From Bryobacteraceae bacterium (lineage in GTDB: Bacteria > Acidobacteriota > Terriglobia > Bryobacterales > Bryobacteraceae): a DNA stretch of 64,000 bases. The notes under the pieces are model-generated. The model did not search any database, had not been told where the DNA came from, and saw only the letters and a program-made list of their open reading frames with translations. A program made the translations under genes and the position numbers. Shown piece by piece: positions 3,135-46,779 of this stretch. How positions within the stretch are numbered: the stretch's first letter is position 1; every line of letters begins with the position of its first letter. The stretch is taken from contig JACZJQ010000223.1 in the NCBI GenBank assembly GCA_014860455.1, positions 1 to 64,000 on the forward strand. The letters are read 5' to 3'.

Positions 3135-4505
3135 ATGTCAGACACCACACGCCGAAGCTTCGTGTCCAGCGCCGCTATCATCGGCGCGCCCGCCGTCAGG
3201 ACGGCCTGGGGGCAGAACCGGCCGTCGAACGAGGTGAGGCTTGGAGTAGTGGGATTTCGCAGCCGGGGCCGCGACCATTACCGGGAGTTCGCCAAGATAC
3301 CTGGCGTAAAAGTGGCATTCCTATGCGACATCGACGAGCGGCTGCACCCAGGCGCGGTGAAGGAGATCGAGTCGATGGCCGGCAACCGTCCTGAGACTTT
3401 CGTCGACCTGCGCAAGATGCTCGAGCGCAAAGACCTGGACGCGATTTCGATCGCCACGCCGGACCACTGGCACGCTTTGCAGACGATCTGGGGTTGCCAG
3501 GCTGGCAAGGACGTCTATTGCGAAAAGCCGGTGTGCCACAACATCAAGGAAGGCCGGAAGATGGTGGAGGCGGCGCGCAAGTATGGGCGGATTGTGCAGG
3601 TGGGGCTGAACCGGCGCAGCGAGGCGCGCAACCAGGCGGGGGTGAAGTTTGTTCGCGAGGCTTCGTTCGGCAAGGCGTACAGGGCCAAGGCGGTGGTGTA
3701 TCGCGGAAGGTTGAGCGTGGGGCGGGTGCAGGAGTCGTCGATTCCGCAGGGGGTGAACTGGGATCTGTATCTGGGTCCGGCACCGTACAGAGCGTTCAGC
3801 CTGAGCCGGTTCCACTACAGTTGGCATTATTACTGGGACACGGCGACGACCGAGGTGGGCAACAACGGCGTGCATGCGATCGATATCGTGCGCTGGGCGT
3901 TGAACAAGAACGAGCACCCGGTGAAGGTGCATTGCGCGGGCGGCAAGTTTGCCGACGACAATACGGATCAGGAGACGCCGAACCTGCAGAACGCGGTGTT
4001 TGAGTACGCCGACGGGACGCTGGTGGATCTGGAGGTGACGACGCTGCCCAGCCCGACATTTGGCGGCGTGCATATGGGCGAGTTCTTCTATACGCCGAAG
4101 GGCTATGTGACGTCGGCGAAGCGGTGGACGGCGGTGGAGGGCGAGTTTATCGCGCAGCCGACGCCGGATCCGCCGTCGGGGATCTCGCTGCGGGCGGTGA
4201 ACCTGAGCTTTCCGAAGATCGGTTACAAGGAAGGTCCGGCGATTCCGGATATCGCGGCGCCGGAGACCAGCCACTTCCAGAATTTCATCGACTGTGTGCG
4301 GTCGCGCAAGCGCGACAACCTCAATTGCGAAGTGCTGGAAGGGCATATGTCGACGGCGTTGTGCCACCTGGCCAACATCGCGTTCCGCACAGGGCGGAAG
4401 CTGACGTTCGACCCGGCGACGGAGACCTTCCCCGGCGATGCCGAGGCCAACACGCTGCTGGGCCGGAAGTACCGCGAGCCGTACACGCTGCCGGACCAGG
4501 TCTGA
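3135..4505 (+). CDS. Tat-exported Gfo/Idh/MocA family oxidoreductase
   Basis: A 456-residue NAD(P)-dependent oxidoreductase. The N-terminal TTRRSFVSSAA is a twin-arginine signal, so the protein is exported folded with its cofactor. The Rossmann domain follows (GVVGFRSRG at about 37-45), then EKP at 130-132, the conserved substrate/nicotinamide-site Lys of the family. The C-terminal alpha/beta domain makes up the rest. Tat-targeted members of this family are numerous in Acidobacteria and Planctomycetes and act on sugars or sugar derivatives; the particular substrate is unknown. An AAGGAG Shine-Dalgarno sequence lies at about 3119-3125. It is flanked by the EEP hydrolase and a sialidase-like gene, which fits a polysaccharide or glycan utilisation locus. 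Confidence 0.9.
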   Translation: MSDTTRRSFVSSAAIIGAPAVRTAWGQNRPSNEVRLGVVGFRSRGRDHYREFAKIPGVKVAFLCDIDERLHPGAVKEIESMAGNRPETFVDLRKMLERKDLDAISIATPDHWHALQTIWGCQAGKDVYCEKPVCHNIKEGRKMVEAARKYGRIVQVGLNRRSEARNQAGVKFVREASFGKAYRAKAVVYRGRLSVGRVQESSIPQGVNWDLYLGPAPYRAFSLSRFHYSWHYYWDTATTEVGNNGVHAIDIVRWALNKNEHPVKVHCAGGKFADDNTDQETPNLQNAVFEYADGTLVDLEVTTLPSPTFGGVHMGEFFYTPKGYVTSAKRWTAVEGEFIAQPTPDPPSGISLRAVNLSFPKIGYKEGPAIPDIAAPETSHFQNFIDCVRSRKRDNLNCEVLEGHMSTALCHLANIAFRTGRKLTFDPATETFPGDAEANTLLGRKYREPYTLPDQV

Positions 4506-4582
4506 AGCCGGCGGAGCTATAAATCAACCTCCGGGACTGGGTTTGACGGCGCCGGCATGGAAGGGCAGACGGCGGGCATAGC

Positions 4583-4594
4583 CTGACCGGTCAG
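4583..4594. promoter_or_regulatory. 12-bp perfect palindrome, possible operator
   Basis: CTGACCGGTCAG reads identically on both strands and lies in the 211-base gap between the Gfo/Idh/MocA gene and the sialidase-like gene, about 120 bases before the latter's start. A palindrome of this size is compatible with a dimeric repressor site. No promoter could be assigned next to it with confidence, so the role is only a suggestion. The rest of the gap shows no gene and no clear terminator. Confidence 0.25.
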
Positions 4595-4716
4595 TGAAAC
4601 GTTGAGGGGTGCACGCGCGCGAGGAGGCGTATCGCGGAGGAGCGCCACGTCAATATACTGGAAGCGGGTCTGCTTGACCGCCGGCCCGTGATTCAGTTTT
4701 GAGGAGCTACACCCCG

Positions 4717-5841
4717 ATGCTCAGGATTCAGATCAGCGCCGCGGCCGCAATCATGTCAGTCGCCCTTGCGATGGGGCAGAGTGCGACGCCGCCGAGAAAC
4801 GTGGTTGTCTACAAAGAGGCGGGACGGTACGGCGGGTGGCCGGCGAACCACGGCATCTGGCAGTGGGGCAGCGAGATTGTGGTGGGGTTTGAGATCGGGT
4901 ATTTCCGCAAGACCGAGACTGGCCATGCGATCGACTATTCGAAGCCCGCCGAGCACGTGCTGGCGCGGAGCCTGGACGGCGGCGAGAGTTGGAAGATCGA
5001 GAGGCCTGAAGGACTAAAGCCGCCGCCGGGGGCGAAGCAGGCCGGCGTGCCGACTGAAGCGGGGCGTGCGGTGACCGACTGCGCGGGCGGGATCGATTTC
5101 ACGGCCAAAGGGTTTGCGCTGACGGCTCGGATGGCGGACATCCATGTAGGACCATCGCGGTTTTACTATTCCACCGACAAGGGGAAGACCTGGCAAGGAC
5201 CGTTCCGGCTGCCGGATTTCGGACAGCCCGGCATTGCGGCGCGCACCGATTACCTGGTGAACGGCAAGCACGATCTGACGATGTTTCTGACGGCGGCGAA
5301 GGCGAACAAGCGGGAGGGGCGCGTGATTGCGGTCCGGACACGCGATGGCGGCAAGACGTGGACGCTGGAAGGAATGGTGGGTCCGGAGCCGGAGGGCAAT
5401 GATTTCGCAATTATGCCTTCGTCGGTGCGGTTGTCGAAGAAGCGGATCCTGACCGCCGTGCGGCACCGGCCGTATATCGACATGTACCGGTCAGAGGACG
5501 ACGGCAAGACGTGGACCTTTGTGAACAAGCCGGCGCCGGATACTGGGCGTGGCAATCCGCCGTCGATGATCCGGCTGAAGGACGGGCGGCTGGCGATGAC
5601 ATATGGCTACCGGGCGGCTCCGTTCGGCATCCGGGCGCGGCTGAGCGGGGACGAAGGCAACACGTGGGGCGATGAGATTGTGCTGCGGTCTGACGCCGGC
5701 AACTGGGATCTGGGTTATCCGCGGACGGTGCAGCGGCCCGACGGCAAGATCGTCACGATTTACTACTACAACGACGATAAGGACGCCGAGCGCTACATCG
5801 GGGCGACGATCTGGGATCCCGGCAAGGCGGGTAAACGCTAG
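4717..5841 (+). CDS. Exported sialidase-like BNR-repeat protein
   Basis: A 374-residue protein with a signal peptide (SAAAAIMSVALAMGQ). Several Asp-box-like repeats of the six-bladed sialidase propeller follow: SLDGGESW, STDKGKTW, RTRDGGKTW, SEDDGKTW, SGDEGNTW. In family terms it is an exo-alpha-sialidase / BNR-repeat protein, which cleaves or binds terminal acidic sugars; catalytic Arg and Tyr residues were not assigned. The start is the ATG ten bases after GAGGAG; an in-frame TTG 18 bases earlier lies ahead of that ribosome site and is rejected. It ends seven bases from a convergent gene. It probably belongs with the two upstream exported enzymes in glycan breakdown. Confidence 0.85.
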   Translation: MLRIQISAAAAIMSVALAMGQSATPPRNVVVYKEAGRYGGWPANHGIWQWGSEIVVGFEIGYFRKTETGHAIDYSKPAEHVLARSLDGGESWKIERPEGLKPPPGAKQAGVPTEAGRAVTDCAGGIDFTAKGFALTARMADIHVGPSRFYYSTDKGKTWQGPFRLPDFGQPGIAARTDYLVNGKHDLTMFLTAAKANKREGRVIAVRTRDGGKTWTLEGMVGPEPEGNDFAIMPSSVRLSKKRILTAVRHRPYIDMYRSEDDGKTWTFVNKPAPDTGRGNPPSMIRLKDGRLAMTYGYRAAPFGIRARLSGDEGNTWGDEIVLRSDAGNWDLGYPRTVQRPDGKIVTIYYYNDDKDAERYIGATIWDPGKAGKR

Positions 5842-40083: not shown

Positions 40084-41308
40084 CTTCGGCTACCGCTTCA
40101 TACATCGCGATCACGTTTTCCGGCGGCACGCCGGCCAGGATGTTGTGCACCTGCTGGAAGACGAATCCGCCGCCCGGCGCAAGCGCCCGGCACTGCGCCA
40201 GGACATGCGCCCGGACCTCATCAGGCGTGGCTTCAGGCAGCACGTGCTGCGTGTCGCAACCGCCGCCCCAGAACGTGAGCCTGTCGCCGAAATCGCGCTT
40301 CAGCCCCTCGGCCTCCATGCCCCTGCCGCTGATCTGGACCGGGTTGATCGCGTCCAGGCCCGCGTCGATCAAGTCGGGCAGCAACTGCCGGACGGCGCCG
40401 CAGCAGTGCAGCATCACCTTCACCGGGGCCAGCCGCTTGGCCTCGGCCCACATCGCCGCGTGGCGCGGCTTGAAGAACTCGCGGTACATGCGCGGCGAGA
40501 TCTGAGGGCAGTTCTGCGCGCCCAGATCGTCGCCGAAGCAGATGAGGTCGATTGAATCGCCCGCAGCGGCCAGGAATCGTTTCAGATTCGCCAAATGGAT
40601 TTCAACCAGCGCATCGAGGAAGCGGTGTGCCCGTTCCGGTTCGCCGGCGAGCATCACCAGGAAGTTGTCCATCCTGTAATAGAACTGGCCCATCTCGAGC
40701 AGGTTGCCGCCGAACAGTCCGAGGATGGCCCGATCCGTCGAAGCCAAGAGCGTGCGCGCGCCTGCTGCCAATTCATCGGGCGATGAGATGGCCGGTCCAG
40801 GCGGCGACGCCACGCCTGTCCACATGTGCTCCGGATACAGCTCGGCGATTCGAGAGAGATCCTCTTCGCCGTCAAGGAAAGGCCAATAGACCTGGTCGAA
40901 ATGGAGCGAGCCTTCGGGCATCCGCGCCATCGCACGCCCCGAAGGCGCCCGCAGCACCCAGTCGCTGCCCAAGCGCTCAGGCAGCGCCCAGACGGGCATC
41001 AGGCAAGGCGTCCCGTCGGGTAGCGTCCATTCGGTCCACCATTTGTCTTCGTGACAAAACCCGCGCCCGAGTTCGATCGTGTCCACGCCGAAACGGTCGA
41101 GCACATCGTCATCGACAATGGCCAACTGCTGCACCGGATCGTAGACCCGCACCGGCCTGGGCTCCAGCCCCAGCGCAGCCCTCAGTTTCGGATACGCAAT
41201 CGCCGAGATGCCCGACGACCTGTGCCCCGACAGATCGATCGGAATTCGGTCCGGCTGCCGGTGCTCGATGGCACAAATCACGCGTTCTCTTGATGTCATG
41301 GCTGCCAT
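40073..41308 (-). CDS. Uroporphyrinogen decarboxylase (UroD) family protein
   Basis: A 411-residue protein of the UroD/methyltransferase superfamily. Landmarks are SRERVICAIEHRQPDRIPID at the N-terminus, DLICFGDDLGAQNCPQISP in the middle, 'KVMLHCCGAVRQLLPDLIDAGLDAINPVQ' (the HCCG metal-site region) and 'GGGCDTQHVLPEATPDEV' near the end. HCxG-type members act as corrinoid- or thiol-linked methyltransferases rather than in heme synthesis, and the real hemE is unlikely to be this one. The start at 41308 follows AAGGA. The upstream extension to 41455 would cross the terminator at 41368-41399. The substrate is unknown. Confidence 0.82.
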   Translation of the reverse strand: MAAMTSRERVICAIEHRQPDRIPIDLSGHRSSGISAIAYPKLRAALGLEPRPVRVYDPVQQLAIVDDDVLDRFGVDTIELGRGFCHEDKWWTEWTLPDGTPCLMPVWALPERLGSDWVLRAPSGRAMARMPEGSLHFDQVYWPFLDGEEDLSRIAELYPEHMWTGVASPPGPAISSPDELAAGARTLLASTDRAILGLFGGNLLEMGQFYYRMDNFLVMLAGEPERAHRFLDALVEIHLANLKRFLAAAGDSIDLICFGDDLGAQNCPQISPRMYREFFKPRHAAMWAEAKRLAPVKVMLHCCGAVRQLLPDLIDAGLDAINPVQISGRGMEAEGLKRDFGDRLTFWGGGCDTQHVLPEATPDEVRAHVLAQCRALAPGGGFVFQQVHNILAGVPPENVIAMYEAVAEATV

Positions 41309-41367
41309 GGATGGTCCTTGTGCCGCAGTTGGCGACTCCGATCCTAGCGTATCCAAGCAGACAGACG

Positions 41368-41399
41368 AAAGGCCGCGATCCCAATCGGGCGCGGCCTTT
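41368..41399 (-). terminator. Rho-independent terminator after the PEP-CTERM gene
   Basis: AAAGGCCGCG and CGCGGCCTTT form a perfect ten-base inverted repeat with a 12-base loop. On the minus strand it lies 26 bases after the PEP-CTERM stop codon and the stem ends in TTT. It separates that gene from the UroD-family gene. Confidence 0.7.
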
Positions 41400-41424
41400 G
41401 AACCATTGCAATTGAGGCGTTTGT

Positions 41425-42060
41425 CTAGGCAGCCGATCGCCGCCGCCGCCACCACAGCGCAAAGGCTGCTGGAATGGTGAGTATAACGGTTGAAGGCTCG
41501 GGGATAGCCGAGGCCCCCCGGCCATCGAGAGTGATGTCGTGCATGCCGAGATAGGAGTTTTCGATGCGGAAGTAGCGGATCTCGGAAAGGAGGCGCTCGA
41601 TGCCCCGGTAGGCTCCGCCGTTGGTGGCACCGGGAGTCGAAATCGGAGCGACTGTCGACAGAACGTAAGATTCAAGAATCGTCGTTCCATCGGCGGCAAT
41701 GGCGGAAATCGTTGCATCCCCGTTGTCCGGCGAGTAGTTCATAAACCCTCCGACGCTCGAGTACAAGCCGCCGAGGTCGATCGTCATTGCCCCCGTCGAA
41801 GTGTTAATTCCGATCATGCCCCAATCCCAGCTACCGTTATCTCCCATGCCAAACCCGCCGTCGTAGTCGTAGACGACGCCGGATGTGTAGGTGATCGGGA
41901 AGCCGGCGACTGTGCCTGCCCCTGGTCCTGAGAAGATGCCGGTACCTCCAGGAAAGGTAGTCGTCGTCCCGCCGACCGGAGTCGTGGTGACCAAAGCCGC
42001 CGATGCCAGGCCGGCGGTGAGCAGGGCAAGCCCTGCCAGACCCGTGATACGAAAAGTCAT
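41425..42060 (-). CDS. PEP-CTERM sorting-domain exported protein
   Basis: A 211-residue protein with an N-terminal signal peptide (GLAGLALLTAGLASA). A Gly/Thr/Ser-rich beta-sheet body follows, and the C-terminus is PEP-CTERM: the IPEPST box, a hydrophobic helix and an Arg cluster (WWRRRRSAA). Exosortase is expected to cleave this tail and hand the protein to the cell surface or matrix. The start at 42060 follows a strong GGAGGAG site; the open frame continues 15 codons upstream without one. No exosortase gene is in the window. The ligand is unknown. Confidence 0.9.
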   Translation of the reverse strand: MTFRITGLAGLALLTAGLASAALVTTTPVGGTTTTFPGGTGIFSGPGAGTVAGFPITYTSGVVYDYDGGFGMGDNGSWDWGMIGINTSTGAMTIDLGGLYSSVGGFMNYSPDNGDATISAIAADGTTILESYVLSTVAPISTPGATNGGAYRGIERLLSEIRYFRIENSYLGMHDITLDGRGASAIPEPSTVILTIPAAFALWWRRRRSAA

Positions 42061-42127
42061 GAAATCTCCTCCAAAGCAGAGCATGCAAGACAAACGTGAA
42101 GCCACATTAACATGCGCCTGTCCAAAT

Positions 42128-42157
42128 ACTGTACCGCAGAGGATGGCTTCCTGACAA
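42128..42157 (-). promoter_or_regulatory. Putative sigma-70 promoter of the PEP-CTERM gene
   Basis: On the minus strand TTGTCA (42152-42157) and TACAGT (42128-42133) are 18 bases apart, giving a leader of about 60 bases before the ATG at 42060. TTGTCA differs by one base from the consensus and TACAGT by two. The surrounding 150 bases hold no gene. Confidence 0.4.
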
Positions 42158-42213
42158 GATCAATATAGCCCAGCCGTGGCGCCTAAGTGCCAATTCGGCA
42201 AAAACTAGGACAA

Positions 42214-42957
42214 TTACGCGCGCCGGATTCGGTAGTCCCCGACCTTCGGCATCCTGAGGATCTTGCACATCTCGAACAGCCGCGACCGCGCCCTCATGCC
42301 GATCTTCTCGGTCAGCGTCGTCTTGATGTCGAACCGCGCCGGCGAGCCTTCAGGATTACGCTCGATCACCTGTGCGCCCATGTCCGGGTCGGGCAGATTC
42401 GTAGTCACTATGGTCGGTTTGCGCTCATTGGCGCGGTAGGTGATGATCGACGTCACCGTGTCCTCAACCCAATCGGTGACGCGGTGCGCGCCCAAGTCGT
42501 CGAGCAGCAGAATCTCGCACTCCATCGCTTCCTTGAACGCGTCGCGGTCGGCTCCGGTTGTCGGGTCGTAACTGGCCCGGATGCGCGACAACAGGTGCGA
42601 GTAATCGGTGAACACCACGCTGAAGCCGTGTTCGATCAGCCGCTTCGCCGCAGCCACGGCCAGATGCGTCTTGCCTGTGCCCGGCTCGCCCACCAGCAGC
42701 ACGCCGGGCGGATCCACGGCAGGGTAGCTGTCGGCGTAGCGCTTCAGGTACAGCATCACCTCGCCGAGTTCCTTCGATCCGCGTAACTGGAAATTGTCGA
42801 ACGTGTCGGTGGCGAAATTCGCAGGAATGCGCGACGCGTCAAGCAGGCGTTCCGTGCGGCCTTCGTTCTGGCACGCGCAGCGCCTGGCGCCGGACAACCC
42901 GTCACGCTCGACGATCACCCAACCCGAGCCGCCGCAGTGGATACAGACTTCCGCCAT
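42214..42957 (-). CDS. DnaC/DnaI-type ATPase (helicase-loader-like)
   Basis: A 247-residue protein. An N-terminal zinc-binding segment (Cys5, Cys8, Cys27, Cys29: CIHC and CAC) precedes an IstB/DnaC-type AAA+ ATPase. Walker A is GEPGTGKT (90-97), Walker B is ILLLDDLGA (about 149-157) and a sensor-like TTNLP follows. DnaC/DnaI homologues load the replicative helicase. The gene is intact and of normal length. It is downstream of a pyruvyltransferase on the same strand, and its own 5' part is repeated at 44047-44370 as a truncated copy. Confidence 0.88.
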   Translation of the reverse strand: MAEVCIHCGGSGWVIVERDGLSGARRCACQNEGRTERLLDASRIPANFATDTFDNFQLRGSKELGEVMLYLKRYADSYPAVDPPGVLLVGEPGTGKTHLAVAAAKRLIEHGFSVVFTDYSHLLSRIRASYDPTTGADRDAFKEAMECEILLLDDLGAHRVTDWVEDTVTSIITYRANERKPTIVTTNLPDPDMGAQVIERNPEGSPARFDIKTTLTEKIGMRARSRLFEMCKILRMPKVGDYRIRRA

Positions 42958-42991
42958 GCCCTCTATTGTCCGACAGATTTCGATGCGCCGA

Positions 42992-44056
42992 TTATCGAGC
43001 CACCTCTTCGGCGAGCACGCGAAGATGCCCCTGACACCCTTGACGCAAATCCTCTACCGGCGGAAACCTGTAGCCCTCGATCCACCGCTCCCATCCTTGG
43101 CGCGCCAGCATCACCTTCGTCCATTCGGCCATACGCGAGTGCCGGTAGAAGTGCTCACTCAATCCCAGACTCTCAAACAGCAGCCGCGTCTTGCCTTCGC
43201 CAAGGACGCTGGCCACCGGCACGCCATATTGCATGCAGACGATGGGCACGTGCAGGCGCGTCGAGACGAGCGCGTCAAGTCCGACCAGCATTTCGAGGTC
43301 GGGTTCAAGGTGTTCGAATTGGTATCTCGTCACGTTCCGTCCCCTGACGGCGAGGCCGAGGCCGCGGTATGGCGAGCGCGTGCGGTTGGCCGAGTCGATG
43401 AGGACGAACTCGATGTCGGGCCTCCGCATCACCGCCATTTGCAGCAGCGCCACGAAATACTCGCCGTGCTGGCGCAACAGGTTTGACGGATACATATCGA
43501 TGCCGATCCGCAGCCGGCCGCGGCTGCTGGACCTCGTGAAGGGAAACATCGCGCCGGTGTGCCAGACAATGTCCGGAAACCATTCGCAGCGGACGCCGGC
43601 GCGCTGTGGCAGCGCGAGATCGGCCTGATTCCTGACCGTCATGCGGCTCGCCAGTGAGAGCAGTTTGGCGCGGCGCTCCCGCGGATCGGGCGGCGCTGGA
43701 TTGCCGTCGCCGCCCACCGATAGCGCCGCCAGCCTCACGCCCCGCCGCTCGGCCTCAAGCATCACTGCAATGTTGCCCAGAATCGCTTTGGGGTGTAGCT
43801 TCCGGTAAATGAATCCCCTCCAGGGGATCAGCGAACTTCCGCCGCCCCAAACCAGCAGATCGGCCCCATCGAGCAACGTTTCCGGCGTCTGCGCCACCTC
43901 AAAGCCGAACCGCCCGGCGTAGGCTTCGCACAGCTTATACACCCGCAATTCAGCGCCAAGTCGTTGGATCGCCCGGCCGAAGATGACAGCCATCAGGTCG
44001 TCACCGAAATTGCCGCGGCCATAGTAACCGCATAGAGCGACTCTTCTCACGCCCAT
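42992..44056 (-). CDS. Polysaccharide pyruvyl transferase family protein, copy B
   Basis: A 354-residue protein of the polysaccharide pyruvyltransferase / CsaB family, which adds a ketal-linked pyruvate to a sugar of a surface glycan. The N-terminus MGVRRVALCGYYGRGNFGDD is the family start (GxxGxxNxGDD). Further landmarks are ADLLVWGGGSSLI, SRMTVRNQADLALP (the family 'S..RDxxS' region) and VSTRLHVPIVCMQYGVPV near the end. It is paralogous to the protein at 44376-45491. It is preceded by, and overlaps by ten bases, the truncated loader copy. The acceptor glycan is unknown. Confidence 0.85.
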   Translation of the reverse strand: MGVRRVALCGYYGRGNFGDDLMAVIFGRAIQRLGAELRVYKLCEAYAGRFGFEVAQTPETLLDGADLLVWGGGSSLIPWRGFIYRKLHPKAILGNIAVMLEAERRGVRLAALSVGGDGNPAPPDPRERRAKLLSLASRMTVRNQADLALPQRAGVRCEWFPDIVWHTGAMFPFTRSSSRGRLRIGIDMYPSNLLRQHGEYFVALLQMAVMRRPDIEFVLIDSANRTRSPYRGLGLAVRGRNVTRYQFEHLEPDLEMLVGLDALVSTRLHVPIVCMQYGVPVASVLGEGKTRLLFESLGLSEHFYRHSRMAEWTKVMLARQGWERWIEGYRFPPVEDLRQGCQGHLRVLAEEVAR

Positions 44057-44370
44057 GGGCCGCCGTTGTCCCGCTTACGGTTCAATCCTGCGCCTGACTC
44101 GCCGACCAGCAGTGCGCCAGGTGGGTCCACGGACGGGTAGCTGTCGGTGTAGCGCTTCAGATAGGGCATCACCTCGCCGAGTTCCATTGATCCCCGAAGC
44201 TGGAAGGGGTCGAACCTAACGTCGGCACAGTTGGCGGGGATACGCGACACCTCGCGCTGGCGTTCAGTGCGCCACTCATCCTGGCACGTGCAGCGCCTTG
44301 CGCCGAACAAACCGTCGCACTCGACGATCACCCAAGCCGCTCCGCCGCAGGGGATACAGACTTCCGCCAT
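44047..44370 (-). pseudogene. Truncated copy of the DnaC-like helicase loader
   Basis: The 107-codon frame reproduces the first 93 residues of the intact loader at 42214-42957: the zinc segment (CIPC and CTC), the 'RIPANCADVRFDPFQLRGSMELGEVMPYLKRYTDSYPSVDPPGALLVGE' body, and the start of the P-loop (GESGAG). It then runs into an unrelated 12-residue tail (LNRKRDNGGPWA). The ATPase lacks its P-loop Lys, Walker B and lid, so it cannot be active. The stop lies inside the next pyruvyltransferase gene, and the break marks the duplication junction at about 44083. It may still be translated as a small zinc-binding fragment. Confidence 0.85.
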
Positions 44371-44375
44371 GCCCT

Positions 44376-45491
44376 CTATTGTCCGTCAGATCCCGTAGCG
44401 GCGGCGTCGAAAAGCAGCGGAGCACGGCCACCGGACACTTCCGCTTCGAGTGCCCTCAAGTGTCCCAATGCCGCGTCGCGCAGGTAGGCAACGGGAGAGA
44501 AACGGTAGTTTGCAATCCAGTGTTCCCATCCGCCGCCGCTCAACATCACACCAGCCCATTCGGCCGCCCGGTGATGCCCATAATAATGCTCCAGCAAGCC
44601 GAGAGAGTCGAGCAGCAGGCGCGTCTTGCCTTCGCTGAACAGGCAAGCAACGGGGACGCCATATTGAAGGCAGACAATTGGAATATGCAGGCGTGTCGAT
44701 ATCATCGCGTCGAGTTCGCCCAGCAATTCGAGATCGGCATCGGGTTGCTCGAACTGATGCCTGGTGACGTTCGCCCCCCGGACAGCGCGGCCGATGCAGC
44801 GGTAGGGCGAGCAGGCGCGATTGGTCGAATCTATGAAGATGAATTCGATGTCGGGCCTTCGCAGTACGGCCATTTGCATCAGGGCTACCACATACTCGGC
44901 GTGGTGACGCCGCAGGTTCGCGAAGTAGATGTCCACGCCGATCCGCAATCGGCCGCCTTTCCGCCGTGCCGGGGCCGGGAATAACTCACTCGTGCGCCAA
45001 ACGATGTCGGGAAAATGGCCGCAGGGGATGCCGGCGCCCCGAGGTAAGGCCAGGTCGGCTTTGTTGCGGACGGTCATCCAACTTGCCAGCGAGAGCAGCC
45101 GGGCGCTTCGTTCTCCTTGTTGCGGAGGAGAAGGGTCGCCACTGCCGCCCACGGAAACAGCGACAGTCCGCACGCCCCGGCGTTTGGCTTGGTCGAGCAG
45201 TTCTGCGTGAGTCTCCAGCTGCAGCCTGGTTTCTTTGTCAACCTTGCGGCCGCACCAAGAGACAAGCGCGCCGCCGCCGCCCCAAACCAACAAGCCGGCG
45301 TCGTCGAGTAGTTCCCCAGGCGTTTGCGCCACTTCAAATCCGAACCGGCCGGCATAGGGTTCACACAATCCGAAGACGCGCGGTTCTATACCCCACTTCC
45401 TGATCGCCTGTCCGAAGATCACCGCCATGAGGTCGTCGCCAAAGTTGCCACGACCGTAGTATCCGGCCAAGGCTACACGTTTCACGCCCAT
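44376..45491 (-). CDS. Polysaccharide pyruvyl transferase family protein, copy A
   Basis: A 371-residue paralogue of the protein at 42992-44056. It shares the MGVKRVALAGYYGRGNFGDD start, GLLVWGGGGALVSW, the SVGGSGDPSPP loop and ISTRLHIPIVCLQYGVPVAC. It carries an extra C-terminal tail (GGRAPLLFDAAATGSDGQ). It probably transfers pyruvate to a cell-surface glycan, as copy B does. The two have diverged at many positions, which suggests different acceptors. It is the first gene of the duplicated array, 42 bases from the mutarotase stop upstream. Confidence 0.83.
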   Translation of the reverse strand: MGVKRVALAGYYGRGNFGDDLMAVIFGQAIRKWGIEPRVFGLCEPYAGRFGFEVAQTPGELLDDAGLLVWGGGGALVSWCGRKVDKETRLQLETHAELLDQAKRRGVRTVAVSVGGSGDPSPPQQGERSARLLSLASWMTVRNKADLALPRGAGIPCGHFPDIVWRTSELFPAPARRKGGRLRIGVDIYFANLRRHHAEYVVALMQMAVLRRPDIEFIFIDSTNRACSPYRCIGRAVRGANVTRHQFEQPDADLELLGELDAMISTRLHIPIVCLQYGVPVACLFSEGKTRLLLDSLGLLEHYYGHHRAAEWAGVMLSGGGWEHWIANYRFSPVAYLRDAALGHLRALEAEVSGGRAPLLFDAAATGSDGQ

Positions 45492-45532: not shown

Positions 45533-46678
45533 TCAGCGCGCCGGAGCCGGGAATCTGTAAATCGTCGTAGAAGCGTAGGTCCCACCCGGCTTGAGCGCCG
45601 TCGTTGGGAACTGCGGCTTGTTCGGCGAATCCGGATAGTGCTGCGTCTCCAGGCAGAACCCGTAACGCTTCTTATACACCTTTCCGCCCTTGCCAGGGAA
45701 CGTCCCGTCCAGGAAATTGCCCGTGTAGAACTGGATGCCCGGCTCGGTGGTCTGCACCTCCAACACGCGGCCCGTCGTGGGCTCGGTCACCCGCGCTGCC
45801 GGCCGTAGCGTGCCCATCTGGCCGTCGACTGCGAAGTTGTGGTCGTAGCCGCCGCCGAATTTGATCTGTTCATCCTTCGCGTCGTCGATCCGTTCGCCGA
45901 TGGCGTGGGGCGCGGTGAAATCGAACGGCGTGCCGGCGACATCCTTCAATTCGCCGGTCGGAATCAGCGTCGCATCGACGGGCGTTGTTTTCTCCGACAT
46001 GATCTGAATCGAGTGCTTCAGGATGTCGCCATTGCCCTGCCCGGCCAGATTGAAGTAGCTGTGGTTGGTCAGGTTGACGACGGTCTCTTTGTCGGTGGTG
46101 GCCTTGTAGTCGATGCGCAGTTCGTTGTCCTCGGTCAGCGTGTACTTCACCTCTGTTTCAAGCGTGCCCGGATAGCCTTCTTCCATGTCGGCGCTGGTAT
46201 AGGTGAGAATCAGCGAATTCGAATTGTTGTCCACCACCGCGTCCCAGGTCTTCTTGTCGAAGCCCTTCACGCCGCCGTGCAGAGAGTTCGGCCCGTTGTT
46301 GACGGCGAGTTTGTACTCCTTACCGCCGAGGGTGAACCTCGCGCCGCCAATCCGGTTGCCATAGCGCCCGATGAGGGCGCCGAAGTACGGATGTTCTTTC
46401 AGATACCCATCCAGCGAACCGAATCCCAGCACGATGTCGGCGAAGTGGCCCGTCTTGTCCGGCGTCTTCAGGCTGACGACGATGCCGCCGTAGTTGATGA
46501 TGCCGACCTCGATGCCGTTCGAGTTCTTCAGTGTGTACAAGGACACTTCGGTCCCTTCCGGCGTGTTTCCAAAGCTGGTTCTGGTCACTTTCGGTCTTTC
46601 CTTCTTCACTTCAGGAGCGGGGGCGCAGCCAATCAGGCCGGCCGTGAGGATGATGGAGATAACTGCCGTGCGGCTCAT
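45533..46678 (-). CDS. Lipoprotein aldose 1-epimerase (galactose mutarotase)
   Basis: A 381-residue beta-sandwich epimerase that interconverts alpha and beta anomers of aldoses. The signal peptide ends in LTAGLIGC, a lipobox, so the protein is probably a lipoprotein in the envelope, which is unusual for GalM. Catalytic landmarks are NSLHGG (His), LTNHSYFNL (His) and GFCLETQHYPDSPN (catalytic Glu). The start at 46678 follows GGAG with a short spacer; the upstream ATG at 46702 does not. It is divergent from the ferredoxin gene, 101 bases away. Confidence 0.9.
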   Translation of the reverse strand: MSRTAVISIILTAGLIGCAPAPEVKKERPKVTRTSFGNTPEGTEVSLYTLKNSNGIEVGIINYGGIVVSLKTPDKTGHFADIVLGFGSLDGYLKEHPYFGALIGRYGNRIGGARFTLGGKEYKLAVNNGPNSLHGGVKGFDKKTWDAVVDNNSNSLILTYTSADMEEGYPGTLETEVKYTLTEDNELRIDYKATTDKETVVNLTNHSYFNLAGQGNGDILKHSIQIMSEKTTPVDATLIPTGELKDVAGTPFDFTAPHAIGERIDDAKDEQIKFGGGYDHNFAVDGQMGTLRPAARVTEPTTGRVLEVQTTEPGIQFYTGNFLDGTFPGKGGKVYKKRYGFCLETQHYPDSPNKPQFPTTALKPGGTYASTTIYRFPAPAR

Positions 46679-46779
46679 GCGACTCCAATCAGCATATGCC
46701 ATTCGCCAGGTGTACGGCCCAGAACAGTTCCAATTCTATATAGGACCAAAATAGTCGTCTATCGTGTTACACTGAGTTT

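Follow-up and report, generated by a model that had tools for sequence, protein, structure and literature searches.

Two pyruvyltransferase-loader units whose halves differ in synonymous age lie head to tail, probably as a duplication scar of mixed history, in a Bryobacteraceae genome

How did a rare polysaccharide gene come to be stacked in two copies beside a conserved ATPase gene, with one of the two ATPase copies ending in the middle of its Walker A motif? The locus lies in a 64,000-nt stretch (the window) at the start of contig JACZJQ010000223.1 of a Bryobacteraceae bacterium, a soil acidobacterium (assembly GCA_014860455.1). On the minus strand, an aldose 1-epimerase gene (45533..46702; Pfam E=7e-99), a conserved upstream neighbour that we used as synteny anchor, is followed by a polysaccharide pyruvyl transferase (PT2; PF04230, 371 aa, 44376..45491; Pfam E=3e-12), codons 1-95 of a DnaC-like ATPase (loader fragment A, 44087..44370; 80% DNA identity to 42674-42957), a second polysaccharide pyruvyl transferase (PT1; 354 aa, 42992..44056; Pfam E=3e-11), and an intact DnaC/DnaI-like AAA+ ATPase with an N-terminal CxxC...CxC cluster (loader B; 247 aa, 42214..42957). 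The C-terminal tail of PT1 is shorter than that of PT2. The direct repeats have start-to-start spacings of 1413 nt in the loader part and 1435 nt in the PT part. A first-pass annotation, made from the sequence alone, had described a tandem duplication of head-to-tail units, and the similarity between them indeed extends beyond the short loader start region: a single blastn alignment of unit against unit covers the entire unit (1451 columns, 69.4% identity, E=1e-164). The layout therefore stands, but a simple single duplication does not, as the synonymous divergence described below indicates. Each copy is present once in the genome, without a third copy of the unit. A scan for promoters and terminators returned two promoter-like matches, neither of them correctly oriented and directly in front of fragment A or a PT.

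The tandem junction was placed at 44086..44087 on the minus strand, from the end of the two direct-repeat families and from the junction sequences. Here loader codon ~95, in the VGESGAG of Walker A and before the K-T pair, is fused to the position 30 nt before the start codon of PT1. The sequence after VGESGAG, ATTGAACC..., matches the sequence upstream of PT2 and of the PT of a related genome (G003, see below), and the overlap at the junction is GG at most. In the list of open reading frames, fragment A forms part of a 107-codon ORF (44047..44370, minus strand) that takes in ~11 non-loader codons past the junction and overlaps the PT1 start by 10 nt. The first-pass annotation was right that the loader ends directly inside Walker A and is joined to sequence just before the next PT. 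It had also described the loader as cut at the P-loop; because the breakpoint is the meeting point of two head-to-tail units, no targeted cut is needed, and the breakpoint merely falls there. A truncated upstream loader and a complete downstream one must result when units are joined head to tail with the breakpoint inside the last gene. In these respects (head-to-tail units, a breakpoint in a gene, first copy truncated and last copy complete, little homology at the join) the locus resembles other tandem duplications with junction truncation, and a duplication that yields a complete gene and a truncated one is routine.

We compared the locus with related genomes. Candidatus Solibacter sp. PR.3.38 (G003, the same contig as L035), of the same genus as the window organism, is colinear with the window and has a single unit: between the epimerase and the downstream genes it carries one PT and an intact loader, as a tandem duplication requires of an outgroup. 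Its PT is the positional ortholog of PT2 (87.6% aa identity) and its loader and loader B share 95% protein identity; G003 has no counterpart of PT1, which was either gained in the window lineage or lost from G003. In two further genomes of the genus (G001 and G002), the epimerase is followed directly by the loader without a PT, which indicates that the PT was inserted late into an epimerase-loader pair. The loader is present in 41 of 41 genomes, a PT of this kind in only three of the 41, and, across the order, the PT in four of 257 genomes. A functional link between PT and loader was considered and is ruled out by that order-wide count, the loader being nearly always found without a PT. We found no donor or sister genome in which PT1 adjoins the loader.

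Two further observations concern the surroundings of these genes. In G019 and G226, the distant PT homologs (L042:777-3019 and L046:5069-7409) each stand before a similar radical-SAM-like gene with a CPVCP motif instead of the loader, an arrangement that also speaks against coupling and suggests that these genera carry another kind of PT cassette. On the other side of loader B, a ~0.9 kb stretch up to the next conserved gene (41300-42213) carries a gene for a PEP-CTERM protein (41425-42105, minus strand); the stretch is missing in G003, where that conserved gene follows the loader after only ~34 bp.

The two halves of the unit differ in their synonymous age. PT1 and PT2 share 66% DNA and 63% amino acid identity, and loaders A and B 80-81% DNA and 74-75% protein identity. 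The loader starts are therefore not "nearly identical", as had been claimed, but their contrast with the PTs is real: synonymous differences amount to 28.5/67 in the loader ends versus 182/267 in the PTs (Fisher P=1e-4), and dS is 0.63 (CI 0.38-1.09) versus 1.80 (CI 1.28-3.12). No 93-codon window of PT1/PT2 is as low as the loader ends (minimum 0.50 vs 0.42 synonymous), and resampling never reaches the loader value. The 43 genes of the window with a G003 ortholog have a median dS of 0.41 (quartiles 0.29-0.57), with 0.29 for PT2, 0.35 for the epimerase, and 0.51 for both loader B and fragment A; PT1 stands at 1.3-1.8 from PT2 and the G003 PT. The loader A-B value of 0.63 is close to this local species divergence of 0.41. 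Elsewhere in the window, two genes at 3135-5841 have 87-91% protein identity to G003 but a dS of 1.3-2.0, far over the local median; the history of that stretch differs from that of the rest of the window.

Phylogenies agree with this order of events for the PTs. In the PT protein tree, PT2 and the G003 PT are grouped (100/99) with PT1 outside, and by protein path length PT1 is ~5x older than the PT2/G003 split (0.65 vs 0.14). PT1 and PT2 split well before the window organism and G003 did, and the loader ends split at about the time of the latter. The rooted loader tree repeats this topology, pairing A with G003 and leaving B outside (98/84), with alternatives left unrejected by AU (p 0.36). 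At the informative loader sites, A sides with B over the first 78 nt and mostly with G003 thereafter (breakpoint P=0.026), a mosaic signal that is based on 27 sites and that local rate variation could also yield. The private changes of loader B are clustered, 12 of 16 falling within 61 nt (42793-42853, codons ~35-55; P=0.0002-0.0015), possibly as a small conversion tract or a fast-changing linker. The first-pass annotation had offered recent gene conversion of the loader ends as an explanation. Recency is ruled out, as the A-B divergence is too high (dS 0.63) even though the weak mosaic signal persists; some recombination or a separate loader history is needed nonetheless.

We consider it probable, at roughly 0.6, that the locus is a duplication scar of mixed history, in which divergent PT-loader units were joined or the loader ends later exchanged sequence. 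The epimerase-loader order kept in G001 and G002 would be ancestral, and a PT gene would have been inserted between these two genes in an ancestor shared by the window organism and G003. The window lineage would then have gained a second unit (PT1 and loader) head to tail behind the first, through an illegitimate join that linked loader codon ~95 to the point 30 nt upstream of PT1; such a join would by itself cut the upstream loader and leave the downstream one complete. Since PT1 and PT2 far exceed the loader ends in synonymous age, the units had probably diverged before they were joined, as versions of the locus brought together by unequal exchange between related strains, unless the loader ends have exchanged sequence since. 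In the former case PT1 would have been imported together with loader B. A donor unit of a single age misfits here, since loader B has an ortholog-level dS of 0.51 to G003 and PT1 one of 1.3; part of loader B must be resident-like or exchanged.

The same relative ages would also follow from an old tandem duplication before the window/G003 split, with later gene conversion between the loaders A and B and loss of PT1 from G003. The depth of PT1 relative to the PT2/G003 split, an A-B dS below that of PT1-PT2, and the mosaic hint together with the clustered changes in loader B would all be expected under such a history, and a crossover between the 5' ends of A and B would yield exactly the G003 layout. 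It requires three events (duplication, conversion, and loss), and the part of its evidence that comes from 27 sites could be mimicked by local rate variation; we regard it as possible but less probable. We prefer the joining of divergent versions, by about 2:1, as the history with the smaller number of events. A single recent and simple tandem duplication into identical units, after which the PTs diverged faster, would produce the observed layout and a junction typical of tandem duplication. It is highly improbable: the threefold synonymous contrast within the unit sets the locus apart from a simple tandem duplication and excludes a single duplication of identical units, and PT1 is older than the split from G003. 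PT1 as a fast-evolving recent copy is ruled out by dS and by the branch lengths, which show no acceleration relative to PT2 (0.27 vs 0.37 on the PT2 side). An assembly artefact that fused two strain variants of the locus might be suspected in a draft genome of 356 contigs in which two divergent versions of one locus stand side by side. However, no assembly-length k-mer is common to the two sides of the join, protein-level decay is already present in the upstream loader, and each copy is found once in the genome, which makes such an artefact scarcely credible.

What has become of the truncated loader? Fragment A keeps the four zinc-type cysteines and has lost Walker B and all later sequence. 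It also lacks K96 and T97 of Walker A, residues that are invariant in the loader family, and since these and everything downstream are missing, it cannot act as an ATPase. It has no Pfam or NCBIfam match. Its branch carries 21 nonsynonymous and 18 synonymous changes, compared with 6:14 on the B branch and 4:7 for the G003 copy, a nonsynonymous excess of borderline significance (P=0.05-0.10). Against the 28 nonsynonymous changes expected under neutrality, the 21 observed are too few (P=0.008 for 21 or fewer), so that constraint on fragment A is intermediate and not fully neutral, which fits a sequence that was constrained for part of its branch and later released. Selection on the N-terminal part of the loader, which had been proposed to explain the similarity of the loader starts, is not well supported, as A has changed more in protein than B and G003.

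We also considered that fragment A might be a functional N-terminal zinc-domain protein, for instance one that competes with the intact ATPase or regulates it. Its ORF is intact, the sequence just before its start codon is common to fragment A and loader B, and the retained cysteines and the deficit of nonsynonymous changes point the same way. However, under neutrality the chance of no stop is 33% and that of keeping all four cysteines 22%, both unremarkable; three of the changes lie near the zinc motif (S11A, G12A, and R18C), of which G12 is invariant in the family; and the nonsynonymous share exceeds that of B and G003. A stand-alone loader fragment was not seen in the other genomes searched, apart from a partial match in the draft genome G008. 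We found no positive support for a retained function and judge one very unlikely, as we do a stand-alone zinc-domain modulator of the DnaC-like ATPase whose N-terminal part has been held close to that of B by sequence exchange. Fragment A looks like a decaying remnant that has presumably lost its function.

Both PTs match PF04230 with scores of 44.2 and 47.4 bits (Pfam gathering cut-off 25.3), and dN/dS between them is 0.16, which indicates purifying selection on both. Both PTs retain R142, H269, and K289 (PT2 numbering), residues that are invariant in five homologs. By motif and spacing (His and Lys 20 residues apart in both), these correspond to R148, H308, and K328 of CsaB, which mutagenesis has shown to be critical for PEP binding (PMC10435577). 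The PTs thus resemble CsaB in their Pfam match and PEP-site residues, but they score only 43.9 and 33.8 bits against the CsaB equivalog TIGR03609, far under its cut-off of 213.1, and are not CsaB itself. From these sequence features, both are likely to be active PEP-dependent sugar pyruvyltransferases acting on a surface polysaccharide or exopolysaccharide.

The intact ATPase, a putative helicase loader, is proposed to retain its ordinary role. Loader B matches DnaC among PDB sequences (E=7e-21), and its structure prediction (mean pLDDT 84) has Aquifex DnaC 3ecc as the closest fold match (E=3.6e-12, TMt 0.85). The AAA+ fold, an N-terminal CxxC...CxC that is invariant in the DnaC-like ATPase family, and matches to the NCBIfam subfamilies PRK08116 and PRK06835 liken it to the DnaC/DnaI (Dna[CI]) loaders. 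Unlike these, it falls short of the curated score thresholds of NCBIfam's loader models and is found alongside DciA in the same genomes. DciA is present in the window genome (G000) and in 19 of 20 relatives, all of which have the DnaC-like ATPase. In our Acidobacteriota sample, the ATPase occurs as a single copy in 249 of 297 genomes and DciA in 185 of 297, the two counts coming from same-sized samples whose listed genomes are identical; the two occur together in at least 144 genomes (185 minus 13 listed ATPase-negative genomes with DciA, minus at most 28 unlisted). In contrast, a 2016 survey found both dciA and dna[CI] in 0 of 1,426 genomes (PMC5109545). Either the DnaC-like ATPase does not serve as a helicase loader, or the exclusion rule for dciA and dna[CI] fails in Acidobacteriota.

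The locus thus shows a rare surface-polysaccharide gene stacked as two divergent copies beside a conserved ATPase gene, and it illustrates that dS, taken separately on the two halves of a duplicated unit, can expose a mixed history. The phylum-wide occurrence of a DnaC-like ATPase together with DciA bears on the published exclusion rule and is worthy of a study of its own.
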